The position numbers and the translations under genes were made by a program. 64,000 nt of DNA from Cephalotus follicularis (taxonomy: Eukaryota > Streptophyta > Magnoliopsida > Oxalidales > Cephalotaceae). Below, piece after piece: positions 21,788-62,519 of this stretch (position 1 is the first letter of the stretch; the number at the start of each line of letters is the position of its first letter). The notes under the pieces are model-generated. The model was not told the origin of the DNA and ran no database searches. It was given only the letters and a program-made list of their open reading frames with translations. The stretch lies in assembly GCA_001972305.1 (NCBI GenBank), contig BDDD01000088.1, forward strand, positions 26,147-90,146. Direction: 5' to 3'.

Positions 21788-24700
21788 TGTTTAACATAAA
21801 AATGTGTTTTTTTTAATGATTTATTTGTGGTATTTTTACGCTTGTAATAGACTACTTTGGTTGTGTTATGTTGATTTTCAGGTTCAAAGCCAAAAAGATC
21901 AAAGTGTATGAAGAATGAGCTAAATTGTGAAAAATCTGCAGAAAACAGAGTTAAGCGTTGATGCCTAGACTTTAAGTGTCAATGCCTAACCCCAAAGCCC
22001 TGGCGGGTACACTATAAGAGTCGACGCTTCGCACTTGAGGATGAACAAATCTGCAGAATTATGATTTTTGTCAACACCAATCTAATTGGTGTCAACGTGC
22101 TAGGAATTCAACATTAAGACGTTAACGCCAAAAGTGCACAATTCGGACAGTAGCTTTACGCGTTAACACGCAAAGAGAAGTTGCCAACGCCATCCTGCTA
22201 CACAATGTAGGCATCGACGCCTTACTTAAGTGTTGACGCTTAACACTCAAAGTATGCCCCATAATGCATGATACAGGTTGAGCGCCTTCAACATTCAAAG
22301 CGTCAACGCAAACTCGAAGTGTCGACGCCCAAGATTTAAGCGTCAATGCTTACGACAGTAGATAGCAAAATTGGAAAGTTTTTAGCTTGTAATTATTTCC
22401 TTAAACAATTTTTAGTAGGTTAAACTTTTTCCTTTTCTTGTTGCACGGGATTTTATGTTTAAATAGATTAAGCTATGTCACAAAAATGTGTGAACAAAGT
22501 TAGTGACAAGCTTTGTAGCCACTTTTATTTATCAATTTCAGTTTTTGTTTGCAATGTTTTTAACAGGACCTGTTTCCAAAACACCGGGGGAAACACGAGC
22601 TCTGCCGGGGATGGCACACCTGCCAATAACCCTCCAAACCAAACCGCCCAACAAAAGCTCTGAGCAAAGGCTCCAGGCGTCTAAACACAAAAGCCCGACC
22701 AGAAACGCCAAGGCAGAGGACCATGCGTTTCCACGCAATGTCCAAAGAAGGACTGAGGACTCAAAGGAAACTACTGGGAGACCAAGACTCACCAATTCAC
22801 TTAAGCCCGAGGAACCCCACATGCTCCCCGCACGTGCTCAGCCAAACATCCAGGTCTACCAAAAGCCAGAGGAGCCAAACGCTACAACTCTTCACCTTGG
22901 CAACAAACTCCAAAGCACATGGGCCTCAACACGAACTAGACGTCCGCGGATGCCCGAGGAGCCAAATGCCTGAGGACACCAGAATGTCCTGGGACACACC
23001 AACGCCAGAGGACGCACCAAGTCCAAGTACTCCTCAAGTCCGAGGACAACCACCAAATATCCGAGGACTTCCCAAGGTCCAGGGATACCAACCGACATAA
23101 GTCTGAGGACACCAAGTCCGAGGACTTGCACCAAGGTTCCAGGCATACCTCACGTTAGAGGACTGCCAACCAACCTAGTGGTCTGGATTCTATTTCCTAG
23201 GACCAAGGACATGCTCAGCAATGACTGTGATGGTCTGACTTCCATCCGAGGAAACCTGTCGTGTACCTAGGTCAAATCTAAGGTCAACAGAGCCCAACCT
23301 ATACCTCGTACACACATAAATATCCACAACTCACCTCTTGAGCTCGACACTAAGGTCTAAACAACCTAAAAATATTGCACAACAATATCCTCCATAGGTT
23401 CATATATGATTGTTTTACAAGGATTACAACCCAAAAATAAAACCCAAAATTATGCCCAATATGCATGAAGGGAACTAGCTGAGAAGGCCAGGGGAAGGGC
23501 TAACTCCTCTGTCTACCTCACAACAAGGTCCTTAATGTGGTCAGACGTGGGGAAGACTTCACATGCTTTCTCAACTGCAAAAACAACAACCTGGGAAGGG
23601 ATTAGTCCAAAGACTAGTGAGAGGGGAAAGAAAGCATTCCTCAGCACCATGGGAGAACAAAGCCCTGAACAACAACGACTATGCCCCAGCTGGGCTCACA
23701 AATCCAGCACGGCTCATCACCTGAACATACTCAACAAGAATCAAAGACTATTGAAGTATATTTTAAGCAAAAGATAATAAAATCAATAATGCTGTGAACA
23801 ATAAGGAGAGAAAGTAAAGCAACTGTCCAGACCAAATATCCTGAGCACCCAAATAAAGGATCTAGACTCCAAGGATCAAATTGATCAGAGGAACATTGGT
23901 ACCTGTCACCTTACCCAAACCACCTCAGCCTTTCACCTCGCCCATAATCCATACATACATCTGCTGGCACCGGATTCCACGGCAGCAATATCTCAACAGT
24001 ACCTGACCGGAGAATAAGATCATAGGCTTGCAGGGAGTACACCACCTGCCATGTATCGATATAGAGAGCCACAAGTCTTGACCTTCCACTAGAGGTGCCG
24101 ACTGATCAGTGTCGAACCCAGTCCCTGGGAGGCAAGTAGATCACGAACATCAACTGAGGGGCTAGTGAATCACCACAAGGCACCACCCTCGTTGGCAATC
24201 GTGTATGAGAACTTCGACGGGAAGGTCAGCGAATCACCGCAAGGACCATCTCTCATCGGGAATCTCTTAGAATCATACCATCAGTCACCACGGTCCCTAG
24301 TATCTAGTGTCCATACTCAACAACACATGGTATCAAGGAAAATTTATGACATATATAAATAGGATGAACAAGGGGAAATATCACCCAAAACCTCAAGCTC
24401 ACCAGCTCGGAAATCAATATCAACTGAAAAGAATATGTCATAAAGGGAAGAAACGACTCCCAGAACAAAGACACCATGGGAGGAATAGCATAAAAGCAGA
24501 GGACACACATACAGCTTAAGACTCTCAACTGTTTCAAGAATAAAGAAAGGAATGTCCCATTCACCACTTATCCGCTCCTCCGCACCTCTTCCTATAGCTC
24601 AGGATCAACGTTCAGCTCCTCAGCTACAAGAACAAAGAACATAGACTTAGCACAGTTTGTAACAAAAACAGAGGAAAAACATGCATATAGTCTACATGCA

Positions 24701-26040
24701 TGATCGCCTCCTCAGATAGTCACCCAGACCATCCACCACACTCAACATTCCACCATGGAGCACCACGATCACCATCGCCATCCCTGTCTTCACCGTAACC
24801 GGGAGGTTGGCATGCACATGCCAAACGAACAGAGGAAAGAAGACGAAGAAAGGAAGAGCTCACCTCTACGAACGCACGGATCTTGTTCTTCAAGCAACAC
24901 GTCTTCGCCAAAGGAAAACTTCATAAGGAAGAAGGAGAAAGAAGAAAGCACAGAAAACTTAGGCACTTCTTTCAACTACTTACTTCTGGCACTAACAACT
25001 ACTACAACGGCTCCTTACCTGCTCAACTGCCTCAACTTGGGGGTTAGGCACCTGACAAGGCAGGACACTGCATCTCGTACACAAACCTGCCTTCAGCACC
25101 TGCACACACCCACGTCAATGCCAACGCGCCAAACGGAGGAAGCCAAAGCACAACACCAACACTTAAGCCCAAACCAAGCCAAAGTCCAACCTCTTCTTAA
25201 CCCAAAAGAAAAAAAAAACTTCTAAGGCCCAAAACACACCAAGTCCAATACTCAAATTGGACCTGGGTCGTTACAGTTTTCTAGCTAACTTCTCAAGGTT
25301 TTTAGGGTAAGAACAAAGCCTAGATTGTATTGTTTCAATTCCATAAATAAAAATCCTTGAAGTTTTGATTTGTTCTTCAATTTTATACTTTCGCACACAC
25401 TTTGTTTGTCTACTTAAAATCCACAAACATTTTGTCGGTGAATAAGAACGTTGGCGAATAATTGGTTTTCAACACGATCAATGGAGTCTACTCATACAGT
25501 TTGTCACGCCGAACACACTCTGTATAGACCTAGCATGTCTAATCATACGATTTGCCACCGATTCCGTACTCCGTATAGACCTAGCATGACTACTCATATG
25601 ATTTGTCATCACAGTCACACTCCTTATCGACCTAGCTGCCATTGGTTATCAAGGTTTAATCGTTCAAGTAAGTGAATTGCTCAATATATTCTATGGTGAG
25701 TTTCTATACCCTAAAACCGCTTTTCACTTATATATTTCGTTTAGTTTATTCCCTGTTTTGATAGTTTAGTAATTTGCATGCTTTAAATCCTGTTAATTTC
25801 AATTCAGTAGCTATTCACGTCGACGCCTTGACAAAGCGTCGACGTCTATCTCCTATGTTTTATTTAATTAGTTTATTTTGCATATTTAGGAGTAGTTTTT
25901 GACAGTAAACCTCGATTTTGAATGCTATGCCTAGGTTGAATAGATTAAAATTAATTTAACTTGATTTCCTAGTGTTAGACCCGTTACTACACAACTGTGC
26001 ACTTGCGGTATAAATTTAAAACATTCTGAACATGTGAACA
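21788..26040 (+). repeat. 3' LTR of the Athila-like element, interrupted
   Basis: Own sequence is 21788-22560 and 25281-26040; the middle is a nested solo LTR (22561-25275). It matches the 5' LTR closely, including the TCGA-word array (21950-22350). Relative to the 5' LTR a segment around 22120 is shortened and some words differ, so the array changes faster than its surroundings. It ends CATGTGAACA at 26040, followed by CTAAG. Confidence 0.9.
22561..25275 (-). repeat. Solo LTR nested in the Athila-like 3' LTR, with two putative introns
   Basis: Starts TAACAGGACC (TG changed to TA) and ends GGTCGTTACA, flanked by GTTTT (22556-22560, 25276-25280). It is a diverged relative of the 1771 and 42910 LTRs. 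Read on the minus strand it shows donor GTGAGC (24858-24863), acceptor TTCTTGTAG ending at 24624, a 59-bp middle exon (24565-24623), donor GTGAAT (24559-24564) followed by GGGACATTCC, and acceptor GTTTTTGCAG ending at 23575. Putative introns are 24624-24863 (240 bp) and 23575-24564 (990 bp). Words of the type CCGAGGAC are scattered at 22700-23160. Confidence 0.85.
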
Positions 26041-26234
26041 CTAAGCTAGAGTCCTAGATTAGGAGGATGGAGAGTGAGATGGAGGGTATGCAGACTAAGG
26101 TGACATAGTTGATGCGGCGATATCAGAGGATGGAGGATATGTTTCAAGATACGTGTCGTACGAATTCTACTCGTACTCCATCTCTGCCACCGCCAGACCA
26201 GCGACGACAAAATATTTGTATTTTTGAACGTTAA

Positions 26235-31770: not shown

Positions 31771-31905
31771 GGAAGATCCAAAACCTTCAGGATCGAGAGA
31801 CACAACATTCAAGAAACAAAGAATTCAAGCATTCTAGTAAATCTCATTCTACAAAGCTCAAGTGTTCTAAAGTGTACTAAAAAATCTTCATAGCTCTATC
31901 CTTTG

Positions 31906-36830: not shown

Positions 36831-36835
36831 GGTCT

Positions 36836-42904: not shown

Positions 42905-43662
42905 CAAACTGTGACGACCCGTCCCTCAGGATAGCCACCTCGAACGAATCACCCGACAGGAAGGACGAATTTCCTATCTCCTCTAAGCCAAAAAGAACGC
43001 CAAAACACATGGCAGGGAAGAAACAAAGAAGAAATGGCAAAACTGTAAATAAGCCTTACATAAAACCATTTCCAAAACTCACTGTTTAACTAAAGGGACA
43101 TAACAACACTGCCCAAATGCACCGTTACACTAAAGGAACATGCCAGGGGAGGGAGCCAGGGCAGAGAACGCAACAATACGTCTTGCCAGGGGTCCCAGGT
43201 AGGGGATGCCAACATCACACAACACAACACGACAAACACAAGCTAGGCCTGCACCACCATCCTAAGACATGCCTTCCCTGGATGAGCCATTCTCGGGCAT
43301 GTCCTCATTGGACGACCAACCCCGGACATGTCCACCCCAGGCATGTCTTCCCCGGGCATGACCTCCCCGGGCATGTCATCCCCGGACAACACGTTCTCCT
43401 CTGACGTCTCCTCGGACAACATGTTCTCCTCGGACAGAGCCTGACGAAAGTGCCAGACCACAACATAAACCAACCCAGCCTTAACACCCCTGAGGTCAGG
43501 ATATGAGCCCCACAGATTGACCCCCGCCCTGGAGAGATCCCCCGACCTACCCGACCTCGGGTAACCTTCTCGATAAACGAGCAAAAGATCGTAACATAAC
43601 GTTTCAAGTAAAAACACAAAAATCTCATCATTAACACAATAAAACATCACAAGAATGCATCA

Positions 43663-44938
43663 TGAAATAAAATACTCTTGCAATATACAAGAGGGGGGTG
43701 AATTGAATATTGAAGTAAATATGGAAATTTAAAAACTTTAAACGTAAAGAGACAAGGAAAGAAAAACTTCTCCGAAATTTAGAGTGGTTCGGCTAACTCT
43801 TGCCTACGTCCACTTTTCCCAAGGGAGCTCCTTGAGTTTCCACTATCTCGATTTGATTAAGGCAGCAAATCGTTACACCTCACAAATTCGTGATTGACCT
43901 CAATCACAAGACTTTGACCTCAAAGCCTTAGAGGATTCTCCTCTTTTACAAGTAATATGAAAGTGTTTACAAGAACCTCTTAAATAGGTTGATGTGAATA
44001 AATATAGCTCACAAAATGAAACACTCAGATACACTCAAAGAATGAAGCTTAGAAGCCTTGTTGAACAATGTAGAGTACTTTGAGCTTTTGGCACACTAGA
44101 ATGCTTGAATTGGATTTCTCTTGATGTTGTGTGATTGATGTAGATAATTCTGAATTGTTGTTGTTCTTGGTATTTCTTCTGAGGTTTCATGCTTCCTTTT
44201 ATAGCCAGAAAAGATTTATAGCCGTTGCTTGATTTGTGGAAGCTTTTGATTTAATAATGTGAGTTACAAATATTGAATTTAATCTCTGCTGGTATAAAGA
44301 CGTCGACTTCTTTGAGAAAGGCGTCGATGTCTTTTAGTTGGTAGCCGTTATAAGTGGTTGAACTAGCCGTTCCAGGTTTCCCGGGTCTTGTTCACTTAAA
44401 AAGGCGTCGACTTCTTTTGAAAGGCGTCGATGTCTTTTGTGGAAAATCTCCAGGTCATGAAGTTTGAACATCTCATCGATCTCTTTCCTTGGAGTCGATG
44501 CTTTTTCTGGGAATTCTGAAAATGGCGTCGATCTCTATTTAAAGGCGTCGATGTCTTTTACTTTGACGTCGATGTCTTTTGTTTAAGGATCGATGTCTTT
44601 GATTGCAAATTCATACAGTAGCTTCTGGTTTGGAAAAAGACTAAAAACGTCGATGTTATCTAGGAAGTGGTCGATGTCATCTTGAAAGTAGTCGACGTTT
44701 TTGGAAGTAGTCGATGTCTTTTGGTACGGACGTCGATGCCATTACTGGGAGGACGATGTCTTCTTTGCAGTTAATCCTGTACAAAAGACGTCGATGCTAT
44801 TTTGAAAGAGTCGACTTCTTTTTCTGCAGATAGGTTTTAGGCTTTGATATTCAACTTGTAATTCCTTGCACATCAAGTAAATTAGTTAAATGCAAATATG
44901 TTATCATCAAAACAAGGATTAAGACTAAATCGTCAACA
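43663..44938 (-). repeat. Solo LTR of the SIRE-type family
   Basis: Minus-strand TGTTGACGATTTAG to TATTTTATTTCA, flanked by CATCA (43658-43662, 44939-44943). It is 1276 bp. It carries the TCGA-word array (44285-44830) and, on the minus strand, the TATA box GGCTATAAAAGG (about 44203-44214) about 75 bp downstream of the array. It shows the full 3' end of the SIRE LTR that is missing or diverged in the element at 31204-41960. Confidence 0.9.
44285..44830. repeat. TCGA-word array in the SIRE solo LTR
   Basis: About 18 words such as GCGTCGATGTCTTTT, GTCGATGTC and GTCGACTTCTTT. The words differ from those in the 31204 element (many GCGTCGA rather than ACATCGA), so the array has diversified within one LTR family while keeping the TCGA core. 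Confidence 0.87.
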
Positions 44939-46263
44939 CATCATTTATCATTTCAAAATAATATATATCTGTTCACGAAAATATCATCCCCTGCTCAAAA
45001 GCCAGGGACCCATACAAAATAATATCATATCGTCCTCAGGCGGAGGACCATACAACAAAAGAATAAAACCCATATGCCCCCATGAATGCATGCAAGGACG
45101 AGCCCGTGAAGCCAGCAGCTCTGCTTGTCCTCCGCAGAGCACCATAGCAACCCAAGAGACTACCCTGGCAGCCACAGTAGCTTCCTCTGCAAAACAACTG
45201 GGAGAGGATTAGTCCAAATGACTAGTGAGCAAGAACAAGCATTCTCCAGAGCATCCACAACCACTGGACGCACAAGGAAAAGAAATATTTAAAATCAAGC
45301 CCCACTGGGCAAAACAGAACAAGTCAGGGGATAAACAAAGGAACACAAACTCAGCAATATCACAAGGCTCCACTCCTCGGAATCTGCCAAAGGAAAAAGA
45401 GAGTCAAATATCAATAAGCGGAGGATTTCCAACAACAGATAACATCACAAGTAAAACAACTGTGCACAAGATAAACAAAAGAAGAGGAACAACACCACCA
45501 TATCCCATGGTCAGTCGTCATACAAGGCAAAACATACACATCTATCCAGACCACAGCCCGCTAACATCTATCCGGACCTCGTCCACTAGTATCTATCCGG
45601 GCCTTGCCCGCTATCCAGCACAGTATCCGTGGTCTGTCGCCATACCAGGTCAAACACATACACACACACCACCTATCCAGGCCTCGCCTGCTAGAATCTA
45701 TCCGGACCTCGTCCGCTAGTATCTATCCGGGCCTTGCCCGCTAGTATCTATCCGGGCCTTGCCCGCTAACCTCGGCCAAATGGAAAGGAACGAAGAATAC
45801 CCCTGCACTCACACTCAACATACCATCATAGACAATAGTACGTCGCAGATCCAGGTATGAAACCCGGGGGCAGTTCCCACAAAGCATCCCATCATAGACA
45901 ATGAGAATACTAAAGAGAGTTGATTCTCGGACATACCCTTTACCACCGACCGAACCCATGCATCCCATCCGCACATCCCAATGCATCCCACATATCAGAG
46001 GAACCCAGAACAAAAGGAGAGATCGTCTGACACAAACAACAACCATCAGAGGAACAACATACATTCAACCCAAAGGACCATCCGAGCTCTCAAGCTCTGC
46101 CAAGAACAGGATAACAACATAAACAAGGGTAACAGGGATCCAAATCCCACAGAAAACGTTCAACCAGAGGATAACAATAGGCACACGAAATATCAAGTAA
46201 AAGAAAGAAGAGAATGTCCCACTCACAAATCGCCTCAAGCTACCGTCGACCAACCCCAAGATG

Positions 46264-46455
46264 CTCTATCACAGCAACAGGTTCCTCGTCTGCAAACTAA
46301 CACATATTAGATCAAGAAGAAGACATACCACATGCATGAACAGAAAACACAACTAGCCACTCTATCACAGCAACAGGTTCCTCGTCTGTAAACTAACACA
46401 TATTAGATCAAGAAGAAGACATACCACATGCATGAACAGAAAACACAACTAGCCA
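46264..46455. repeat. 96-bp tandem duplication spanning the first LTR acceptor
   Basis: Two copies (46264-46359 and 46360-46455) of a segment that occurs once in the partner LTR. It includes the putative intron-1 acceptor and the start of the middle exon. The two copies differ at only one or two sites, so the duplication is recent. Confidence 0.93.
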
Positions 46456-46878
46456 AACTAGGCTATCATCCTTCTCCTCGGCCCCAACATAACGTGCCAC
46501 CACATAATACAAATCAGGGAAGAGGAGAGCTCACCTTCACAGCTCAAAAGCAAAAGAGGGCAACCAAAACGCTCATGAAAGAAGGGGAAAGAAGAAGAAG
46601 AAGAAACCAGCTCTCTCTCACTTCTCTCTCTCAAAGCCGAACTCCACTAACCAAGAAAGCAATGCCAGCCCACTTACCAACTCCCACAATTCTTATCCCA
46701 ACGCAACCTTGGGAACAACAAGCTTCCTCAAGAAGCTAACCATTAAATCAATATAATAACCCAAACTAATCATGTTCACATGTTTAAACAACTTACCACA
46801 ATTCTCACTTAAGTCCTTTCCATGTGCCAAACAAGGCCTTAATTTATAATCCTCTAAAAACAGGTACGGGGTATTACA

Positions 46879-46890
46879 TCCCCACCTTAG
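46879..46890 (-). promoter_or_regulatory. Polypurine tract of the gag-only element
   Basis: Minus-strand CTAAGGTGGGGA lies directly before the 3' LTR (TGTAATACCCC). Preceding AATTTTGGGGACAAAATTC is the conserved end-of-pol stretch of this family. Confidence 0.75.
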
Positions 46891-46908
46891 GAATTTTGTC
46901 CCCAAAAT

Positions 46909-48306
46909 TTAAAACACGGGTGGAACATGATCTGAAGAAACAAACTTACCTTTATCCTCAGCAGGAGTGGTAAGGCATGTACCCGTCTTCAAATTGTACA
47001 CCCTTGTAGTGGCCATAGGTCTTCCAGACGGTCTACTACTACTAGCTCCCGAACCAAAGGCTTGCCGAGCAGCCACTCCACTACCCGATGCACCCAACTG
47101 TTTGGTCCTCTGCCTTGGTTCTCTGGCCGTTGACTGTACATCCGAGGATGCAAATCCTTGTGTCCCCGTTGCACCCTGCAACCTCAACGGACATCGATTC
47201 CTCAAATGCCCGGTCTAACCACAATGGTAACAAGAACGTGTCTCCACTCCATACTCACCAACATGGTGTCGACCACACTGCTGACAACGTGAGGGTGACG
47301 AAAAAGTCGCTGCACTCTCCATCTCAGGAGTTCCATGAGAAAAACTAGGGACTGGAGCCTGAGTCCGCTGCTGGGGTGATCCTCCCCAAGTCCCCTTACC
47401 AACTGGTCCACTGGCAGACGAAGGTCCCCTCGTCCTCTGATTCTTGGAGGAACTTTCCTCCACTTCAAGATTCGAAGCAGACCGTTTCTGTCCTCGGTCA
47501 TGTCTGCTCCTCTGCTCATTTATGCTTAGCTCGACCCTCATGACCGACTCCACCAGATTACCAAAAATATTCCAATCAATAGTTGCTACAGAATGTCGTA
47601 TCTCCGGCCTTAAGCTGTCCAAAAACCTCTGCCATCTCTCCTCCTGGTCAGCCACCAAGGCAGGAGCATAATGAGACAACTCCAAAAACTTATGCTCATA
47701 CTGTGCCACCGACATAGAACCCTAATACAAACGCAAGAATTCCCTCCTCTGCTCCTGGACATAGGTACGAGGAAGAAAATGTTGACGGAACTTTTTCTTG
47801 AACAAAGCCCAGGTGATCTCCAGGGGATCCTCAAACCTAGCAGTCAAAGCTTCCCACCAACGCAAGGCTCCTTGCTCGGACAAAAAGGACGCATTGCCCA
47901 CCCGCTGGTCCACGGATATATCAATCCTTTCAAATATCCTTTCCAAACGGTTTAACCAAGTCTCTGCATCAGTGGGGTTCCTAGATCCTTAAAAAAGAAC
48001 CGCTCCAAGGAGATGCATACGCTCAAGTGGCAAAGGTTGAGGTCTAACTGCCCCAACAGTTTGAGCCCAAATGGTAAAAGCCTGTAACAGCTCGGACTGA
48101 CTTCCCGCAACAACCGGAGGAGGTACTTGAGTAGTAGACTGCCCAGCATGATCCTCGACCACTGCCAGCCTGCTTTCCCTGGCCTCAACCCCCGGATTTG
48201 CCTCCACGTCCGGCTGAACATTCTGTGGTTCCCGATCCCCAGCTGGCCTCGAGCTTGTCCTGCCCCCAATCAGGCCACGACCTCTGGTACCACGACGACG
48301 CATCAT
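46909..48306 (-). pseudogene. Chromovirus-type gag of the gag-only element
   Basis: The likely start is at 48306 (MMRRRGTRGRGLIGGRTSSR). The capsid domain shows MERIFERIDISVDQRVGNAS, GALRWWEALTARFEDPLEIT, KKKFRQHFLPRTYVQEQRRE and SVAQYEHKFLELSHYAPALV, typical of Tekay/Del-like chromoviruses. A double zinc-knuckle region follows: CQQCGRHHVGEYG (last Cys changed to Tyr) and CYHCG, stop, TGHLRNRC (47215-47240), where TAG replaces a probable CAG. Another TAG lies at about 47721, and a frame change occurs near 47950-47990. Gag packages RNA. There is no protease or polymerase after it. The final frame ends near 46909, about 20 bp before the polypurine region. Confidence 0.85.
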
Positions 48307-48451
48307 CCTTCACACACATGGCAAGAAACCACCGTAACAACACATTTTATATGTATGCCATGAATGAAATGCAAAACCCAACATATAAAACCCCAGAAAG
48401 CATCAACACACAACAAAAAGGAAAAACATGCACTAGAACCACAAACCGGTC

Positions 48452-48463
48452 TCTCTGATACCA
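48452..48463 (-). other. Primer binding site, tRNA-iMet type
   Basis: Minus-strand TGGTATCAGAGA, 2 bp from the LTR end, matches the initiator Met tRNA 3' end (TGGTATCAGAGC) at 11 of 12 positions. It confirms that transcription runs on the minus strand. Confidence 0.85.
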
Positions 48464-49418
48464 ACTGTGACGACTCATCCCTCAGGATAGCCACCTCGAA
48501 TGAATCGCCCGAAAGGAAGGAGGAATTTCCCATCTCCTCTAAGCCAAAAACAACGCCAAAATACATGACAGGGAAGAAACAAAGAAGAAATGGCAAAACT
48601 GTGAATAAGCCTTACATAAAACCATTTCCAAAACTCACCGTTTAACTAAAGGGACATAACAACACTGCCCAAACGCACTGTTCCACTAAAGGAACATGCT
48701 AGGGGAGGGAGCCAGGGCAGAGAACGCAACATTACGTCTTGCCAGGGGTCCCGATCACGGGATGCCAACATCACACAACACAACACGATAAACACAAGCC
48801 AGGCCTGCACCACCATCCTAAGACATGCCTTCCCTAGATGAGCCATCCTCGGGAATGTCCTCCCTGGGCATGGCCTCCTCGGGCATGTCCTCCCCGAACA
48901 ACACATTCTCCTCTTACGTCTCCTCGGACTACATGTTCTCCTCGGTCAGAGCCCGACGACAAGTGCCATACCATAACATAAACCAACCCAGCCTTAAGAC
49001 CCCTGAGGTCAGGACACGAGCCCCACAGGTTGACCCCCACCCCGGAGAGATCCCCCAACCTGCCCGACCTCGGGTAACCTTCTCGATAAACGAGCAAAAG
49101 ATCGTAACATAACGTTTCAAGTAAAAACACAAAAATATCAACATTAACACAATAAAACATCATAAGAATGCATCATATATCATTTCAAAATAATATATAT
49201 ATGTTCACAAAAATATCATCCCCTGCTCAAAAGCCAGGGACCCATACAAAAGAATATCATATCCTCTTTAGGCCGAGGACCATACAACAAAATAATAAAA
49301 CCCATATGCCCCCATGAATGCATGCAAGGACGAGCCCGTGAAGCCGGTAGCTCTGCTTATCCTCCGCAGACTGCCTTATCAACCTAAGAGACTGCCCTGG
49401 CAGCCACAACAGCTTCCT

Positions 49419-50458
49419 CTGTAAAACAACTGGGAGGGGATTAGTCCAAATGACTAGTGAGCAAGAACAAGCATTCTCCAGAGCATCCACAACCACTGGA
49501 CGCACAAGGAAAAGAAATATATAAAATCAAGCCCCACCGGGCAAAACAGAACAAGTCAGGGGATAAAAAAAGGAACACAAACTCAGCAATATCACAAGCC
49601 TCCACTCCTAGGACTCTGCCAAAGGAAAAAGAGAGTCAAACATCAATAAGCGAAGGATTTCCAATAAAAGATAACAACACAAGTAAAACAACTGTGCCCA
49701 AGATAAACAAGAAAAGAGGAACAACACCACCATATCCCGTGGTCAGCCGCCATACCAGGCAAAACATACACATCTATCCAGGCCATAGCCCGCTAACATC
49801 TATCCGGACCTCGTCCGCTAGTATCTATCTGGGCCTTGCCCGCTATCCACCACAGTATCCATGGTCTGCTGCCATACCAGGCCAAACACATACACACACA
49901 CCACCTATCCAGGCCTCGCCTGTTAGAATCTATTCAGACCTCGTCGGGTAGTATCTATCCGGGCCTTGCCCGCTAGTATCTATCCGGGCTTTGCCCACTA
50001 ACCCCGAGCAAATGGAAAGGAACGGAGAACACCCCTGCACTCACACTTAGCATACCATCATAGACAATAGTATGCCGCAGATCCAGGTATGGAACCCGGG
50101 GGCAGTTCCCACAAAGCATCCCATCATATACAATGAGAATACTAAGGAGAGTTGATTCTCAGACGTACCATTTACCACCTATCGAACCCATGCATCCCAT
50201 CCGCACATCCCAGTGCATCCCACATAGTAGAGGAACCAAGAACAAAAGGAGAGATTGTCTGACACAAACAACAATCGTCAGAGGAACAACATACATTCAA
50301 CCCAAAGGACCATCCGAGCTCTCAAGCTCTGCCAAGAACAGGATAACAACATAAACAAGGGTAACAGGGATCCAAATCCCACAGAAAACGTTCAACCAGA
50401 GGATAACAACGGGCACACGAAATATCAAGTAAAAGAAAGAAGAGAATGTCCCACTCAC
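49419..50458 (-). other. Putative LTR intron 2 (5' LTR of the gag-only element)
   Basis: Donor GATTT|GTGAGTGGGACATTC at 50458. The acceptor region is GACTAATCC...TTGTTTTACAG ending at 49419, and the next exon starts AGGAAGCTG. A branch-point-like CTAAT lies about 30 bp before the acceptor. The same donor and acceptor blocks recur in six other LTRs, whereas the intervening 0.8-1.2 kb varies. Confidence 0.5.
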
Positions 50459-50521
50459 AAATCGCCTCAAGCTACTGTCGACCAATCCCAAGATGCTTTG
50501 TCACAGCAACAGGTTCCTCGT
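50459..50521 (-). other. Putative 63-bp LTR middle exon
   Basis: Sense sequence starts ACGAGGAACCTG and ends AGGCGATTT. Counterparts in other LTRs are 65, 59, 63, 62, 66 and 67 bp long, a tight range although the sequences differ. Confidence 0.5.
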
Positions 50522-50670
50522 CTGCAAACTAACACATATTAGATCGAGAAGAAGACATAACACATGCATAAACAGAAAACACAACCAGCCAAACCAGGCT
50601 ATCATCCTCCTCCTCGGCCTTACCACAACGTGCCACCACACAATACAAACCAGGGAAGAGGAGAGCTCAC
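50522..50670 (-). other. Putative LTR intron 1 (5' LTR of the gag-only element)
   Basis: Donor GTGAAG|GTGAGCTCTC at 50670 and acceptor GTGTTAGTTTGCAG ending at 50522; 149 bp. Equivalent introns in other LTRs are 151, 149, 197, 240 and 681 bp. Confidence 0.5.
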
Positions 50671-50977
50671 CTTCACAACTTAAAAGCAAAAGAGGGCAAC
50701 CAAAACGCTCACAGAAGAAGGGGAAAGAAGAAGAAGAAGAAACCAACTCTCTCTCACTTCTCTCTCTCAAAGCCAAACTCCACTAACCAAGAAAGCACTA
50801 CCAGCCCACTTACCAACTCTCACAATTCTTATCCCAACACAACCTTGGGAACAACAAGCTTCCTCAAGAAGCTAACCATTAAATCAATATAATAACCCAA
50901 ACTAATCATGTCCACATGTTTAAACAACTTACCACAATTCCCACTTAAGTCCTTTCCATGTGCCAAACAAGGCCTTA

Positions 50978-50984
50978 ATTTATA
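50978..50984 (-). promoter_or_regulatory. TATA box of the gag-only element 5' LTR
   Basis: Sense GGATTATAAATTAAGGC begins about 30 bp from the LTR start. A decayed version GGATTATATTTTAAGG occupies the same place in the 1771-4066 LTR. Confidence 0.5.
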
Positions 50985-51019
50985 ATCCTCTAAAAATAGG
51001 TACGGGGTATTACACAAAC

Positions 51020-51471: not shown

Positions 51472-54400
51472 TGTCACACTCGTCTCGATCGAGACGGATG
51501 TGACCATCACGTAGCAAGCCTACTTTCAGAAACTTCCACGTGATATGTTAAAACTCGTTTGAAAACTTCTTAAAACCATATAATTAAAAATCATAAAGTT
51601 GAACTTTTCTAAAAATTTGAAAATAATTCTAACTCGTAAATATTTACGAAAATCGGGCATGTAGTATCCGTTTATCGGACTATGCCCCTTGTAAAGAAAA
51701 ACACAGTTTATAAATTGGGCTTAGCCCTCAGTAAACCACAAGAAAAATAAAAAATATGCATGGGTTGGGCTCCGCCTCAACCATATTATCAAAGCACGAA
51801 TCATAAATAGGGCTCAGCCCTTCGAAACAAAATTATATAAAAAAACATTTGTATAAAAACATAAAAATGCATAATTTAAATACTAATGTCGTGGATGATA
51901 TGCACGTGTTGGAACTCTGGTAGGCATGCCCTCGTGGTCCGACATTGACTGATGCAGGCTTAACAACTGCTTGCCATTATCTGAAATGGATAAAAAGGAC
52001 CCCGTGTCCAATTTAAGGATAAATTAAGTGTTTTGGGCCTTAAGGAAATGTTTGGTTTATTGGATATTGGGATAAGTGGTGATATAAAGCCCAAGGTAAG
52101 GAAAGGAGATATTTTGTTGTAAGGTTGCCTTGTGAAGTGCGAAGCATCTTGAGGAAGCTATTAGCTTTGTGTGCTAATACGGCTGAAACGGGCAAAGGTA
52201 TGAGTGTCCTGTCAGTTCTTGCTTTTTGGAAGGGTGTTTTGCTTGAATTATATTCCTTTCTTCTTCGTTCTTCTTTGGAGACTTTCTTCACCGAGTTCGA
52301 GTTTGGAAAGGTGAGTGCCTCTCTTCTCTGTTAGGTATAACCGTGTGATGTGCTATATCTTCCGTGTTCGGATTCGAGGCAGAGTTGCGAAAGTATGATG
52401 GCTGAATGAACAACGTTGTGGATTTTTTTGCATGTAGGCATTTATGCATGTTGCTCTGTTATGAGTAGAACAGACGGTGCTAAGTCTGTTGTGTGTTGAT
52501 CTTGTAGATGAGGATCCAGGCGTTGAATCAGTGCAACAAGGAAGCTAGTCGGAGGTTTGCGGTAAACCAGTGAGTGGGACATTCCCTTCTTTATAACTGA
52601 TAATTGAAAGTCTTAATGTGCCTTATTATCCATGATATTGATGTTGACCGGGATTTTCCTTCCCGCAGTCTTTACTTGATTTCCTAGCATGTTGAAATAC
52701 TATTTTCTGAGTATGTATTCTCGATGTCCTGGGTTGATGTGTTTTCCCCTGTTTATTTAAGTATTTCATTCTTGTTGATATCATGTGTCGTTCTCTGATG
52801 CTGAGTATTGGCAAGCTCTGGTATGTGAGATTTGCTTGGCTGAGGAGGAGTATTGCTTTGGATCCCAATTGTATTTAGCAGTTGCATTGTCTATAATGGG
52901 TTGTTAAGTGTGACTGTCCCTGAGTTCCGTTACCTGGATCTGCTCATTCCATTTGTCTATGACGGTATGTTGTGTGAGTGCAGCCGATGGATCCATTACT
53001 TCTTCTGTCAGACCATGTCAAGTGCTCTGATATGAGATTGCCGACTAGGGATGGTCTGGGCGGTGATTCGCCTAACTCTCAATCGAGGTTCTCTTTTATG
53101 ATTTCCAACAAGGGTGGATCTTGGGCGGTGATTCACTGGCCCATTAGTGGATGTTCTAACCACGTGAGTGTCGATGAGGGTGGAGCTTGCGCGGTGATTC
53201 ACCGGCCCCTCGATCGAGGTTTATTTGGTGTTGTGCTCTAGGCGTGTGGCATCTATACCAGTATACAAGGGATCTGTACAATCCTGTAGCCTATGACCTT
53301 GCCAATGTGGTTCTTGTAGAGTAGATAATGATGTGGTCATGTGGTTTCGACAGTGATGTGTATGGCCACGGTGTGGGTGGCAATGTGAGTTGTTGATCCG
53401 AGCAAGTACCAGTGTTCTCTGAATCGTATGATCCTTAGAGTCCTTGACCTTTTATTGTGATCCTTTGAGTTGATGACTTTCTTAGCACATTATTGTTTTT
53501 CATTGAGGTCGATGTCATTGAGTGGGTTACTCTGACGTTTATCTTTAACTCTCTTGCTTTTCTTGATATATTTACACTCTTCTCTGTTTTATTGAGCAGT
53601 GTTATATATATTGTTGTTAGCCCAGTTAGGGATAGCATGAGATGCTTACCTCCAGCACGTCCATTTGTTGTGGGATGCTTAGGGAATGTTTCTTTCTCAC
53701 TCACTAGTCAGTTGGACTAATCCTCTCTCAGTTTTTGTGCAGTTGAAGTGCAAGGTTGAAGTTCCTCTGATCCATCCGACCAAGGCCTGTTTTGTGATAG
53801 GTAGACCATGGCGCGAGCACCTTAGATGGCTTCTTTGGCCAGTCAAACCTGCATGCATTGGGGCATTTTGGGTTTTGTATAGACTCTTTTGTGATTCAGG
53901 GGAATTATTAAGCCTTGTATTTTGTTGATCATTCATTGATGTATAATCCATGAATTGTTGTTATTTCACATGTTATGTGGTTTCTCGGCAAGGGAATGAT
54001 CTAAATTGATGAATGAATCTCTTTTTAATGGCCATGAGATCCTTGTGATGATTTTTATGTTTAAGTATATAGGAGGCTTAGTGTAGAGCAGCAGAGGAGG
54101 AAGTGTTGAGTCCAGAGGACTCAGTAGACCATAGGTGGCGGTATAGACTTTCTCGGCAAAGGTCAGACCATTTGAGTCATTGCCAGAGCATGAAGTTAGA
54201 CCTCCCCAGCATAGGTCAGACCTCATGGTAGTCAGACCAGACCTCTAGGCTTAAGAGTAGAGAGGGCAGTACGAGAGTTAGTCCTCGATCATAGAGAATG
54301 GTGTTGAAGTGGTAGTCTGGCTTCTCGGCTTAGGTCATATCCGACCACCCACCTAGGTTAAATTCAAAATAAAGCGCGGAAGTTTTATATGCTCGGGTGC

Positions 54401-57214
54401 CGTGTGATTTAAGCGACGGAGCACGCGCTTGTTGATCAGAAAGGAGCTCTGCTAGTATATCCTCTTATGACGAGTCTTAGCGTCAGGCCTCCTAGATTTT
54501 ATCTGATCATTTGAGTTATATGTTTTTTCCGATATGGTTTGAGGTGGAGGATTGTTGAGGTGTATCCTTTCTCCTGGCGCGACCTGCCTCCTGGAGAGGT
54601 GAATGGAATGGGTCGCGTCAAGTTAGTCCAAATGACTAAGTGAGTAGGGATAAAGCATTTCCTGATACATCCATTCCAAAACTAGATGTGCTGAATAAGA
54701 GAAGTATACCATGATCAAGAATATGTACCAAAAATAATGTGAAATAATTCCATGAAAGAACTCGATCACAATAAGCCTTCACAAAAGCAAGCTTATAACT
54801 CAACAATGAAGATGAATAACAGAATCAAAATCAAGGCCACAAGCCCAAGATAGAAACAAGTAAATCCAATGAAAACAATCTCAATACTCACGGGAAGAAC
54901 TCCACAAGTACAGATGAGTCCATAGTGGAAATGAAGTACACAATAAAATCAGGACATACATATGTAATTAACAATAAAAAATCAAGAGATGTTCCCACAT
55001 AACACAAATATTTGGAGATGCCGGTACAACTATAATGTCATAATCATAAATAATGTCATCATCATATAACAGCTGCAGCAATAATAACAGGCCAATAGGC
55101 TACAGTATGTGTACATCATACTTCATATACCGGTGCAGAGTGCCTATGGTAAGCAACATGCACCCCACTCCCAACCAATGGCATGCGTGTAAGCGGCACG
55201 TACCCCACCCCTCATGATGGGCCTACGTGTAAGCGGCACGTACCCCACCCTTTACGATGGGTGTACATGTAATCACATCATAAGGGTACCAGCATCGGAA
55301 TATAAATCACAATATCACATATCACAATGATAAACATAAGGAAAGGTGACATTGTCACCTAGAGCCAGAGCACTCATATGCTCGTCAACCATATCAAAAT
55401 CATGGAAAAGGATCAATATAATCACATACGGGATCCAAATCTCAAAAACTATCATATGTCAGGAATACGAAAGGGCACATATCATATAAGAATCTTAATG
55501 ACAATAGAATAGAGGAAGGGAATGTCCCACTCACCGTATCAATGCCAATAACCCCCGTGGGCTAGCCCCTCTATGCTCTGGATCAACTATAGGATCGCGT
55601 CTACAATGCCATTACATAATGACTCATTATCCACATTTTCTATACTTATTCACATGAAATGCATGTATGAGCTACTTTATGCATTAAGAGGTCATCTTTG
55701 CCAGATTCCCCCCAATTAACACGTAACGACTTATAATTCATTATACCATTTACCTTATTTCACAATTATACTTATTACTCTCATTATCATATAACTCCTC
55801 CTTGCAACTGATTTGTATTAATACGCCACTCATATGTGCACATACGTACTAACCATAACTCATAATCAATTCTATACTCATTCCAAAGCATCACCAATGT
55901 TTACTATCCTTCACCTATACCACTTTATCACCATATCAATTAAACAACATTTAAAACCTATGCACTCTCACCATGGCCGAAGCTCCCTTACAAAGGACAT
56001 GATTAAATGGACTTAGTTTCTTAACTCCACCTATATATATGAATCTCAACATACTAGCATATCTAGCATCAAGAAATAACCAACTCCTTTCATACTTCTA
56101 CATGAGGCCAAAACCTAGAAGATAAAATTAACCATTAAATTGTGATAACATACACCAATTTCCTTATGCTAATATCATCTAACACCTTTAACACCAAGAA
56201 TTACTCAACTAAGTCGAATGAACCATAGTACTCAATTAAATCGATATAAACAATGAAATTACTACAGGAAAGGAAATTCACCTCACTGGATGTTGAAACC
56301 TAGTAGATGCATCGTGTCGTCAGATCTCCGCCGATCTCTAGCCACCTCCCCAAAGGGCCACTGCAACACTGCCCTGTAGGTATGCCACAAACTGCACAGC
56401 TCTGAAGTGCAACAGGGCCATCAATGGCCACGCAGGGGGATCATTGAGCTTCTGCAGCCTCGCCGGAGCTCCGGCAATGCCGCCAAAGTTCCGGCCACTC
56501 CACTGCCAGACCACAAAAACGTCAATCTATCAATCTCTGCTTGAGAACCGCTATGACTCGTCACTAAATCGCCTTGCCGAAGTTCCGGCCACTCGTCGTG
56601 GCTTCAACCACGCCATAACCGGCCTTCAAATTTTTCGATATGTCCATATCCGCTCATGACTCATTGTAACTCGCCACTAAATGCCTAGCTATAGCCTTCG
56701 CCATACCGAACTCGGTGAGTTAACTCAGTCAAAAAAAACTCACCGATTTTCCAGCGAAATAGAACGGAAATCGCCATGGGTGAGCCGAAATTCGATCTGA
56801 AGCTTAGCTCCACCTATAATGATCACGGCGGTGGAAAGGTGACGCTGAAAATGAAGCTCCAAGCTTCGGCGTTGATGGAGAAGAAAGAGAAACTGTGAGG
56901 AAGTGTGATGCGACGGCGAAGAGGAATCCGTTTCTCTCGCTGAACTGCCACCGGTGACGACGAACGGCAGTGAGATTGCCCGTTGACTCTCTCTCTCTCT
57001 CTCTTTACTTCGACGCCTCGTGCGTATCTCTTTTCTTTAACAAAGCGTTTGGGCCTTCAATTTTTTATATAATAATAATAATAATGCGCTCAACGCATTT
57101 CTGTGATCCACACACGTGTCTCTCTCCCAAAAAATCTAAAATCATATGCTACGATCACTGTTCATGATTTTACGGAAAACACTATACCAAACTAATTGGA
57201 ACACGGATGTTACA
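51472..57214 (-). repeat. Chromovirus-like LTR with nested LTR, two putative introns
   Basis: In sense (minus) it starts TGTAACATCCG at 57214 and ends near 51472 (plus strand TGTCACACTCG; approximate). It is interrupted at about 51995-54620. Splice-like sites in sense: donor GAG|GTGAAT (56276-56281), acceptor GGCATTGTAG ending at 55601, a 66-bp exon (55535-55600), donor CG|GTGAGTGGGACATTCCC (55529-55534), and acceptor TTATCCATTTCAG ending at 51981, beyond the nested LTR. Intron 1 would be 681 bp. Tandem repeats of about 40 bp (TAAGCGGCACGTACCCCACC type) lie at 55150-55265 and a (CT)n run at 56985-57004. The flanking 5-mers do not match, so the ends are less certain. Confidence 0.65.
51995..54620 (+). 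repeat. Nested chromovirus-like LTR, plus sense, two putative introns
   Basis: Inserted into intron 2 of the 51472-57214 LTR. It ends GGGTCGCGTCA at 54620; the left end is approximate. On the plus strand it shows donor GGAAAG|GTGAGTGCC (52311), acceptor TTGATCTTGTAG (ends 52507), a 62-bp exon (52508-52569), donor CCA|GTGAGTGGGACATTCCC (52570) and acceptor GTTTTTGTGCAG (ends 53742) preceded by GGACTAATCC. Putative introns are 197 bp and 1173 bp. Words of the type GGTCAGACC cluster at 54100-54330 in the part corresponding to U5. No coding domain is present. Confidence 0.7.
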
Positions 57215-59093: not shown

Positions 59094-60338
59094 TGACACG
59101 ACCCATCCCACAAGGCCGTGACACCGCATAATGAGTCGTGCTTTACTACAAGTACTAAGTACGCACATCAAACATCGTGTTTTGCAAAGAACAGGGCGCT
59201 AAGCACCGAGGTCTGACTTAGCATTTCAAGCACTGCCTTAGTTTCTCGAGCTCTACCTTAGCTTCCTTACTCTAGGGTCTGACCTCTACCTTTGAGGTCT
59301 GCCTTCAGGCACCGAGGTCTAACTTTGAGCTTTGAGCTCTGATTTCTGCCTCTGGCCTCTTCCCCCGAGGTTTGCTATAACATTCAGAGCTCTGCCTTAG
59401 CATTATGAGCTCTTCCTTCAGCTGTCCGAGCTCTGCCTTAGCAGAACATCGAAAACGGTTACTAAAATGTGCAGTTCAAACCACAATTTATATTTCCACA
59501 CTCCCGAAGGAGGAATCAGCATTTCATTAAATCCAAATCCATCAGATATATGTATATCATGAACATTTAATTAAGTTTCATCTCATCATTTTAACCATTA
59601 CAACATATTTACTCAAATTATATTATCAACTCATGATCATTCTAACTCTCAAATCAAAATCGCATATATCCCAATGCATGCATGTGAAACTGGCTTGAAT
59701 TGCTAGTGAATATTGTCTGTGCCCGTGGTCTACATCTAGCAACCCAAACTATTACAGGGCTAGTGGATCAAGTAGCTCGCCAACTGCTTTCTTCAACTGA
59801 AAAATATAGATAAGAGAGGATTAGTCTAAATGACTGAGTAAGTTGAGACAATTCATTCCCTATTACATCCATACAAGAACTGGATGCGCTGAATAAGGAG
59901 ATATATCATAGCCAATGATGTAACACAAGAACCCATTGAATAATCTCGATACATGAATAAGAGCTCCGCAAACATCAATAAAATCCATGATAAAATCAGA
60001 GAACATAATAACATCAAGGTTTGTAGAGCTGATCAACAACCAAGAATCAAGGAATGTTCCCAATAAATCATGATATCCAGGAATGTTGGTATAACTATTA
60101 TGTCATCATCATATATCATATCACCATCACATAACCTGTGAACGCCATATCTCATGTCACCATTATATATCAAAACATCATAATACAACAGTTGCAGTAA
60201 TAACCTCAGCCAATAGACTACAGGATGTGTACATCATCCTTCATACACTGGTGCAGGGTTGCCTATACCTCACCCTCGTCCGAGGGGCCGACGTATCACC
60301 ACATGGACCAAGCCCTCGTTCGATAACTCAAATACGTC

Positions 60339-60583
60339 ATAACAACCATACCTCGCACAAGGGGCCTACATGTCACAGCATGCACCCCACCCTCGCTGAG
60401 AGGCTAATCCATAACAACTATACCTCGCACGAGGGGCCTGCAGCTCACCCTAGCTGAGAGGCTAACCCATAACAACCGTACCTCGCACGAGGGGCCTACA
60501 GCTCAACTTCGCCCAGAGGCTAAACCATAACAACCATACCTCGCAAGAGGGACCTGCAGTTCACCCTCGCCAAGAGGCTAACA
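60339..60583. repeat. 59-bp tandem repeat, about four units
   Basis: Units read CATAACAACCATACCTCGCA, then CGAGGGGCCTACAGCTCACC and a tail GAGAGGCTAACC, with small differences. It lies inside putative intron 2 of the LTR. Confidence 0.85.
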
Positions 60584-60614
60584 TGTCATTGGATAAGCAA
60601 ATGCGGTCCGATAA

Positions 60615-61103
60615 GGCTCCGTTTGTTTAGAGGAAAATATTTTTCTCATTTTCCTGTGTTTGGTAACATTTAGAAAATAAGTTAACGGAAAATATTTTCC
60701 AATCAACGGAAAATCTTAATATAAATATAGGAAAATGTTTTCCTTAAAAAAAGGGGAAAACATTTTCCCCTCCCTTATCTCTCATAATTTTAAAAAAAAA
60801 TTATAACAAATCGTTCTCTCTCCCCATTCAAGTAAGCTTCTCTCTCTATCTCTCTCTCTCTCTCTCTCTCAATCTCTCCCTCTATCTTTCTTTCTCTCTC
60901 TATCTCTATCTTAGTATATATATTTTAATGGACAAAAAATAATTTTATTAACAAAAGAAAATATTTTCCAGATTGTGTTCCAAACAGTGAAAAATATTTT
61001 CTAGATTATACACCAAACACAGAAAAAAATTATTTTTCAAGAAAATATTTTCCAGTGAAAATATTTTCCTCAGGAAAATATTTTCTTCCAAACAAACGGA
61101 GCC
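60615..61103. mobile_element. hAT-like MITE
   Basis: Perfect 14-bp terminal inverted repeats GGCTCCGTTTGTTT / AAACAAACGGAGCC. The 489-bp interior holds many GAAAATATTTTCC palindromes and a (CT)n run (60835-60905). There is no coding capacity. The sequence type resembles widespread plant hAT MITEs. The flanking 8-mers (TCCGATAA, GAAGTGAG) do not match, so the target duplication has decayed or the ends extend differently. It sits in the putative intron 2 of the LTR. Confidence 0.75.
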
Positions 61104-62519
61104 GAAGTGAGTAATGAAGCTCCGTTGCACTCACACTCGTCATACCATCATAGACCAACGGTATGCTGCAGATCCAAGCTATGGAAGCCTGTGGCAGTCC
61201 CACATAACACCCTATCATAGACCAACATGTATGCTAAGGAAAGCTAAGCATCGGACGTACACCTCACCATCGACCGATATCACAAGTCACAAATCACATG
61301 GCACTCAGCATCAGGGTATAGAGTACGATATCATAATCACGGTGATACATAAAATGGAAAGGTGACCTTGTCATCCAGAGCCCGAGCACTCATCTGCTCA
61401 TGAATCACATCACAATCAAAGAGCATACGGGATTCAAATTCAGATCAAATCATAACACATCATGATCACAGAGGGGCACATATATATATAAGAAGTTCAA
61501 TGACAAGAAAGATAAGAAGGGAATGTCCCACTCACAGATTTACTGCAGTCCACTACCATGGACTATCCTCTTAATGCTCCAGATCAACCACCAGATCCAA
61601 GTCTTAATATACTAGAAGAATGGATGAGAATGATTTATAAACTCGATTTCTTGAAGAAGAAGTGGAGAGCTTGAAGAAGGTGAAGTTCAGCCAACACAAA
61701 TAATAAAGAGAGGTCTCCTTCCCCCTTAAATTTTTCATACAATCCGTGTATATATATGAGTATGAAGAGCTTTGTAGAGTTTTGGAGAATTTGAGATGTA
61801 ATTGGCGAAAATTTGGGCTTTAATAAAAACATGTCCATCACAGGCCTGTCCAAACTAGGCACTTCTTGGTCAGCTCCCAGGTCTGCTCATCCTAGTCTGT
61901 TCAATCAGGTCTGCTCAACAAAGACAAAATATGCTCCCATGTCTGCTTATCCTAGACCAAGTCTGCTCAACAAAGACTAGGTCTGGTTGACCAGGTCTAC
62001 TTGACCAGGTCTGCTTCTCAATAATTACTATAGGTCTGCTCTGCTACAATTAATGTAGAGCATCACATCCTAGAGCTAATGCATTAGCCTGCGCAACTCA
62101 ATTCTGATTCCACAGCGAGGGCATCTCACAAGCCCTGCAACAAAACGCAAGTCTGCTCTGAAGCCGAGCAACTCACCAAGCAGGCCTAAACGAGGCCAGC
62201 CCAAACTGCATGCTTAACCTCATCACTATCTAGGGTTATGTCTGAAGCTCCATGCACTGCTCGGTCCCCTAACGTTAGCACCAAGATCAAGCTAACCTCC
62301 ACAGAAGCGCACTAGCAACGAAACTTCCAGAAGGATACAGAACAGCAGGAATTGAATGATCCTCAAACAACCCGGAGGGAATAACCAAGACCATACCCGT
62401 ATAGTTCACACAAACAAACCTGGAGATACATCTCCACAACTGTGGTGCTTTCCGACAAAAGAGACAGAGTCCTCACTCAAGCAAAGAGGATCCACCTTCA
62501 AGAGACATGGGGTATTATA

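Follow-up and report, generated by a model that had tools for sequence, protein, structure and literature searches.

Long terminal repeats (LTRs) with an intron-like layout recur in a window of 64,000 nucleotides (nt) from Cephalotus follicularis (assembly GCA_001972305.1; forward-strand positions 26,147 to 90,146 of contig BDDD01000088.1, here C88). The window is the whole stretch of DNA analysed and part of a 1.58-Gb genome, which served as the sequence space for word counts. Seven such LTRs represent six families (A-F), and two of them, the family A LTR and the LTR at 42910-46878, are both LTRs of one gag-only element. A predicted 5' splice site (donor 2, GTGAGTGGGACATTC) and a branch-point/acceptor block (AGTCATTTGGACTAA followed by YAG) are repeated in all seven, 0.7-1.7 kb apart and 3' of a short exon. 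That this intron-like design, which comprises intron 2 and, in A-D-type families, also intron 1, has been under long conservation is well supported. The complementarity between donor 2 and the branch region, with co-varying pairs across 14 families, is a new observation.

Predicted splice-site layout in the LTRs

Donor 2 reads GTGAGTGGGACATTC in families A, D, E and F, GTGAGTAGGACATTC in B and GTGAATGGGACATTC in C, and further family C copies carry exact GTGAGTGGGACATTC in 7/13 cases. The word is present with 0-1 mismatch in 7/7 window LTRs (five exact, two with one mismatch), and GTGAGT stands at the site in 6/7, the family C copy having GTGAAT. With up to three mismatches allowed, the whole window holds eight matches versus 1.68 expected, a number reached in 0/100 shuffles, and no further match at this stringency was found in 60 kb of flanking sequence (L057-L062). 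The acceptor-2 side usually takes the form CACTAGTCATTTGGACTAATCC, then pyrimidines, then CAG. CTAAY, the consensus core of the branch point, precedes acceptor 2 in 5/6 window families, B having CTATT. Two characters of U2-type introns are found in the window families, namely GT..AG ends in a donor-like context, though with a poor exon side at donor 2, and a branch-point consensus within 15-50 nt of the acceptor. Intron 2 spans approximately 0.77-1.74 kb in the window and intron 1 149-240 nt. In A, B, C and D, donor 1 has the form MAG/GTGAGY (slash, exon-intron border) and, under an approximate scoring matrix, comes 2/229, 1/210, 3/257 and 1/225, respectively, among all GT of the same LTR. A search of Rfam at gathering scores gave no match in the window.

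An earlier note, made from the sequence alone, had placed the family A sites exactly where they stand in Table 1 and had claimed the same layout for six other LTRs, with middle exons of 59-67 nt. This observation was confirmed: the donor-2 word and the branch/acceptor block recur in every one of these LTRs, and exon 2 measures 63, 65, 59, 62, 66 and 67 nt in A-F, respectively. Its count of six clear first donors falls to five (A, the A sister LTR, B, C and D), the site being doubtful in E (AAG/GTAAAT) and absent in F, and its donor-acceptor spacing of 0.77-1.2 kb, which it gave without insertions, is exceeded by the 1.74-kb intron 2 of F. Nor is a rule of paired introns supported, since F, and on the present reading also E- and G-type families, show intron 2 alone. 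In the E-like loci L068 and L070, no GTRAG was found in the 350 nt upstream of donor 2, and in family G (see below) the 200 nt before donor 2 hold no MAG/GTGAGY, only TCA/GTGAGA. The donor and acceptor blocks, which the note called the best conserved parts, are among the parts conserved between families but are not alone in this: a block of ~125 nt in the middle of intron 2 has an identity of 83-88% when A is compared with five other loci. BLAST homology of A with C, D, E and F is weak and confined to donor 2 with exon 2, the acceptor-2 block and, in D and F, this third block within intron 2, while C and D have longer stretches in common.

Table 1. Predicted features of the intron-bearing LTRs and of the family A element, in window positions; LTR borders for C-F are those given by the earlier note.
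Feature	Positions	Strand	Details
Family A 5' LTR	48466..51014	-	2549 nt; start TGTAATACCCC at 51004-51014, end CA; primer-binding site adjoining; sister LTR 42910-46878
Family A primer-binding site	48453..48464	-	TTGGTATCAGAG; similar to 3' end of initiator methionine (iMet) tRNA
3' LTR of the same gag-only element	42910..46878	-	extra 1.3-kb stretch ~43664-44938; donor 2 46226; branch block 45206-45229
gag pieces	46912..48309	-	no pol piece seen; internal region ~1.6 kb
Family A intron 1	50522..50670	-	149 nt; AAG/GTGAGC .. TTTGCAG/; homologous strong donors in B, C, D
Family A exon 2	50459..50521	-	63 nt, without ATG
Family A intron 2	49419..50458	-	1040 nt; GTGAGTGGGACATTC .. TTTTACAG/
Family A branch-point block	49438..49455	-	AGTCATTTGGACTAATCC; proposed branch A near 49441
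Helix 5' arm, family A	50441..50458	-	donor 2 and next 12 nt
Helix 3' arm, family A	49457..49479	-	GGAGAATG..GCTCAC; ends 15 nt before presumed branch A
Mid-intron-2 block	50030..50154	-	~125 nt; TATGATGG twice; common to D, F, G and others
Mid-intron block, further places	45922-45783, 61243-61126, 52885-52983		up to 88% identity between families; also L065, L068, L070, L072, L077, L078, L006
Family B	2805..3789	-	donor 1 3789, acceptor 1 3639, exon 3638-3574, donor 2 3573, acceptor 2 2805
Family C	23575..24863	-	donor 1 24863, acceptor 1 24624, exon 24623-24565, donor 2 24564 (GTGAAT in this copy), acceptor 2 23575
Family D	52311..53742	+	donor 1 52311, acceptor 1 52507, exon 52508-52569, donor 2 52570, acceptor 2 53742
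Family E	51981..55600	-	exon 55600-55535, donor 2 55534, branch block near 54630, acceptor 2 end 51981; D inserted between branch point and acceptor
Family F	59797..61602	-	no intron 1; exon part 61602-61536, donor 2 61535, acceptor 2 59797

Tandem-like repeats lie at 49725-50003 in intron 2 of A and are present too in B and the sister LTR. ATGCAT occurs within exon 3 in 6/6 families, ~90-120 nt past acceptor 2. No third intron was seen by eye between exon 3 and gag.

Complementarity between donor 2 and the branch region

In 7/7 window LTRs, donor 2 and the next 12 nt can pair with a stretch 0.7-1.7 kb away that immediately precedes the branch block and stops some 15 nt short of the presumed branch A, with a duplex energy of the two arms between -19.8 and -28.0 kcal/mol. 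The helix has two parts, in which GTGAGTGGGA pairs with ..CTCAC and CATTCYYY with RRRGAATG, leaving 5-8 unpaired nt between them on the 3' side. Windows of the same intron that do as well against the donor arm as its proposed partner number 6/41 in E, 2/83 in F and none in the other five LTRs; for the acceptor arm the corresponding counts are 1/83 in A, 1/83 in the sister LTR, 4/78 in C and none in the other four.

Arm collection covered 61 LTR sequences, six without a pair of arms being excluded. Arms were swapped between families in 14 of 20 rows; the rows set aside (L067, L070, L071, L073, L074 and L079) are closely related to rows retained. With kinship ignored, own arms of the 14 families form 228/252 standard pairs versus a permuted mean of 222.0 (fraction 0.00014), and 211 versus 199.3 when only Watson-Crick pairs are counted (fraction 0.00022). 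Six families alone give the best possible outcome, for which a fraction of 0.0167 is the floor. Two-sided changes occur at d7 (A-T/G-C), d14 (T-A/C-G), d16 (T-A/C-G), d17 (C-G/T-A) and d18 (T-A/C-G), and family G (L006) provides a clean paired change, with CATTC to CATCC matched by GAATG to GGATG. Both arms of L083 deviate from the usual words, yet its donor is the best-pairing window of the upstream stretch (-24.2). Non-pairing rows comprise A-C at d10 in 9/14 and G-A at d7 in 5/14.

Recurrence in the genome

As an exact 15-mer, the donor word occurs 5160 times in the whole genome (2597 + 2563) versus once for its reversed control, and the branch word 6964 times (3494 + 3470) versus 17. Exact donor patterns had 0 matches in IMG/VR and GTDB contigs, as expected of a plant element. 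The two words occur in a fixed order: within contigs C1-C16, the exact branch word lies 0.6-1.9 kb downstream, on the same strand, of 23/73 exact donors and upstream of 0/73. Fifteen donor places were also fetched by coordinate, one per contig, and a linked branch block was found in 13/15, the exceptions being L075, whose stretch ended early, and L072, with none in 1.88 kb. Among the 13 loci with the block, a YAG lies 24-28 nt past the presumed branch A in 12, L078 being without one there, and a YAG also stands at 13 nt in 9/13. Sampling in the reverse direction covered six places fetched by the branch word (L080-L085). A donor was seen in two of these, so that the branch word also marks LTRs without a detected donor; the two are L083 and L084, in the latter of which the donor is disturbed by a small deletion and is not the best-pairing window. 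In L080, the mid-intron block lies close to the edge of the stretch and the donor may be out of range. The seventh family, G, is represented by L006 (C3972:91482-97080), in which a family A solo LTR is inserted inside intron 2.

Leader character, mid-intron block and processed copies

ATG is rare in the proposed exons 1 and 2: exon 1 (150 nt before donor 1, four families) has 5.0 per kb and exon 2 (six families) 5.2, versus 39.3 for intron 1, 30.8 for intron 2 and 39.4 at the start of exon 3, over its first 300 nt (counts in which the family E acceptor was set off by 14 nt). Taken together, exons 1 and 2 hold 5 ATGs, where base shuffles give 18.8 (fraction 0.0002). A count over the 60 nt that precede donor 2 covered 12 of the 13 fetched loci that have the block, L066 being left out for want of upstream sequence; it gave 7 ATGs, compared with 13.6 after shuffling (0.025) and 22.2 for windows of the intron (0/5000). 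Such depletion in exons 1-2 is the pattern expected of a scanned leader with introns, and it stops short of exon 3. TATA-like words lie upstream of donor 2 in G (TATAAAAAG, ~170 nt), L068 (TATAAAG at 183) and F (TATATAT at 221); if these words are promoters, donor 2 would fall in the first exon there and the intron in the transcribed leader. No such match is present in A-D within 300 nt before donor 1.

The mid-intron block shows weak structure in RNAalifold (-9.2) and may be a candidate mark of genome RNA. In exact-word counts, 517 places have family A exon 2 no more than 30 nt from intron-2 sequence, and the spliced order, with exon 2 equally close to exon 3, occurs at 0 places genome-wide by one exact-word pattern. 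The RNA that rebuilt the LTRs thus kept intron 2 in every copy visible to these words. Genome RNA spliced in the 5' LTR would tend to yield intron-less LTRs on reverse transcription. The zero spliced-order count therefore leaves two readings: spliced RNA does not serve as genome, or no splicing takes place. The processed copies for which the earlier note had proposed a search were thus not found in family A, and its suggestion that translated and packaged RNA are kept apart agrees with the 0 versus 517 places, a result equally expected without splicing.

Several upstream open reading frames, the longest of 109 aa, lie between acceptor 2 and gag (48306-49418, minus strand).

Proposed regulated splicing and its alternatives

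The reading preferred here, with a probability of roughly 0.62, takes intron 2 for a genuine, regulated intron of the spliceosomal type, located in the LTR leader, with the long-range helix holding its 5' splice site. A large group of Cephalotus Ty3/gypsy (chromovirus-type) LTRs would accordingly carry intron 2 in the transcribed leader, in some families with a small intron before it, and the helix would hide donor 2 from U1 part of the time, so that only part of the RNA would be spliced. Spliced RNA would be the message, while unspliced RNA, which in several families keeps the mid-intron block, would be the genome and, when reverse transcribed, would rebuild intron-bearing LTRs. The donor probably lies in the R region, and hiding it may also decide the use of the poly(A) site of that LTR, as in foamy viruses; the poly(A) site is assumed to lie downstream of acceptor 2. 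We infer splicing itself, the extent of R and the roles of the helix and of the mid-intron block. The interpretation offered in the earlier note is thereby partly supported. A wider version is possible but doubtful, in which an entire superfamily of plant chromoviruses would have a complete LTR intron under helix control, splicing would lead to translation and unspliced RNA with the mid block to the genome, and the retrovirus-like message/genome split would be encoded by the LTR.

At stake is how plant retrotransposons share one RNA between translation and packaging: an intron wholly within the LTR has to stay unspliced in RNA destined for reverse transcription if it is not to disappear. A donor-hiding helix would be a testable answer, with thousands of natural variants. 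Gene annotation would also be affected, as such LTRs near genes could supply promoters with leader introns.

A number of observations weigh against regulated splicing. Under the same approximate matrix, donor 2 ranks only 24, 11, 22, 10, 2 and 36 in A-F among 210-257 GT sites, and its exon side is poor (TTT/, CCA/, TCT/). The minimum-energy fold of the whole intron holds the helix in B and D only (2/6 copies), its probability in whole-intron folding being 0.29 for A and no higher than 0.08 for C, E and F; because it is not generally part of the global fold, the case for it rests on covariation and duplex energy. In contigs C1-C16, 50/73 exact donors are without an exact branch word in range, and no donor was found within about 1.35 kb in L081, L082 and L085. 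The leader downstream of acceptor 2 in A keeps 1112 nt with 39 ATGs before gag, which does not support the view of the earlier note that splicing would remove most of the LTR-derived leader. Copies were collected at the family level for A (best 40 of 5293 first candidates) and C (best 40 of 3031). Among the best 40 candidates of family A, conservation is flat along the copies: the GT of donor 1 is conserved at 0.98 and that of donor 2 at 0.88 versus 0.83 for other GT (6% and 66% of controls as high), and the AG of acceptor 1 at 0.90 and that of acceptor 2 at 0.97 versus 0.81 for other AG (59% and 21% as high). The sites are conserved between families. The refuting outcome named in the earlier note, that GT/AG would not exceed neighbouring positions in conservation, is thus seen inside family A and counts against the finding. 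Since the sites are among the parts conserved between families, the flat pattern is taken as neutral decay of dead inserted copies, uninformative on selection.

An unlikely alternative treats the blocks as the two sides of a conserved RNA structure that packaging, dimerisation or strand transfer requires, their likeness to splice sites being incidental. The donor block is indeed kept over 15 nt, beyond the needs of a 5' splice site, the helix co-varies, and a third conserved block lies between the arms. However, a helix needs no branch consensus, pyrimidine stretch or YAG past its 3' arm, no acceptor 1 and no donor 1, nor does it explain the scarcity of ATG in the proposed exons 1-2 beside its abundance in the proposed introns. 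It is also improbable that donor 2 serves U1 and the control of polyadenylation, by the logic of foamy viruses, with splicing minor or absent. This explanation has most of the same evidence in common with a regulated intron, alongside which it may hold, and it suits a donor with a weak exon side that can pair with the 3' arm; it leaves unexplained the conserved branch-like block, followed at 24-28 nt by a YAG (12/13), the first intron in A-D and the ATG-poor exon 2. DNA-level promoter or chromatin elements are a very improbable source of the blocks: LTRs do hold regulatory DNA, and the mid block has TATGATGG twice, but the fixed strand and order (23/73 downstream, 0/73 upstream) and the co-varying complementarity point to RNA. 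That an LTR once captured a host 5' untranslated region (UTR) with introns, whose sites are relics without present use, is scarcely credible, since the comparison, which covered LTR families and not host genes, shows the sites, the exon length and the co-varying helix persisting in families with otherwise barely alignable LTRs, even if the layout (ATG-poor exons, GTGAGY donors, CTAAY branch) resembles a plant gene leader.

Related systems

Splicing of a plant LTR is already on record. A cDNA of maize CRM4TR, tandem repeats derived from the LTR-UTR of the chromovirus CRM4, has a splice in its LTR part, showing that a plant chromovirus LTR-UTR can be transcribed and spliced (PMC3648361); the earlier note had known of no prior account of paired introns in plant LTRs. 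In contrast to the Cephalotus LTRs, CRM4TR are tandem-repeat derivatives rather than elements, and the excerpted report makes no mention of donor and acceptor blocks conserved from family to family, of a middle exon of fixed length or of intron ends that pair (PMC3648361). Predicted donors have been described in soybean Diaspora, where five LTR sites lie far upstream of gag in a very long leader; these are predictions only, and in 2005 the authors knew of no LTR element reported to carry an intron 5' of gag (PMC1142308). A 2025 review regards plant LTR elements as generally intron-less, with Ogre and EVADE among the exceptions (PMC12786077). Ogre, EVADE/EVD, BARE1 and sunflower Tyran and Varan all have spliced RNA forms beside full-length RNA, as proposed here, but in the excerpted sources the spliced products are subgenomic gag RNA or further coding isoforms, and an intron inside the LTR is unmentioned (PMC12786077; PMC7730604).

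Foamy viruses have a splice donor in the R region of the LTR, with RNA structure thought to control the access of U1 (PMC3694450). A possible counterpart in Cephalotus is the complementarity of the donor with its covariation; the helix is in the global fold of 2/6 copies. Unlike foamy virus (R of 193 nt in the prototype), Cephalotus has donor, branch point and acceptor all in the LTR, and the pairing spans ~0.7-1.7 kb. In human T-cell leukemia virus (HTLV) types 1 and 2, acceptors lie far downstream, outside the LTR, and export is Rex-dependent. HTLV-1/-2 do resemble the present case in splicing within R, and a repressive element of the 5' LTR (R-U5) stays whole only when the RNA is unspliced (PMC3434621). 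In human pre-mRNAs, conserved stretches of complementarity have likewise been connected with pre-mRNA processing, but in host genes, not LTRs (PMC8052449). No description of paired intron ends inside plant LTRs was found among the papers listed by searches of open-access literature, judged by titles and abstract openings. LTR splicing in a plant chromovirus derivative is known from CRM4TR, and the Cephalotus layout differs from it.

Elements and affiliation

The element at 42910-51014 is gag-only and probably non-autonomous, with two LTRs of ~2.5 kb and 1.6 kb between them. Between the family A LTR and its sister LTR, identity is 94.7% over 514, 93.6% over 1421 and 87.4% over 755 aligned columns. 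A gag piece gave a Pfam match under the cut-off (E 0.0095), and 24/24 protein matches of the gag piece are named Cephalotus follicularis. A spacing of LTR copies of 4.2-4.3 kb was found again elsewhere in the genome (L010, L012), showing that the gag-only short form is itself a repeated element.

A full domain order was read from the internal region L063, between two C-family LTRs: gag, RVP_2, RVT_1, RNase H, integrase zinc-binding and SH3_Tf2-1. Pfam called no chromodomain in this region; its tail, LDRREQ..VLWRN..EEAT, presumably resembles a plant chromodomain. The C-family 3' LTR next to L063 begins TGTAATGACCC. An LTR start of TGTAAYACCCC together with an iMet primer-binding site is a hallmark of plant chromoviruses of the Tekay-like type. 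This start is exact in A, its sister LTR and B and has one mismatch in F, and a primer-binding site is visible in family A alone, where we take TTGGTATCAGAG to match iMet tRNA. The pol order is readable for family C (L063) only, and family A, with its gag pieces only, cannot be placed as a Tekay-like chromovirus. Elsewhere in the window, open frames at 31903-38404 (plus strand) resemble by eye a Ty1/copia element, with zinc knuckle, integrase and reverse transcriptase-like pieces.

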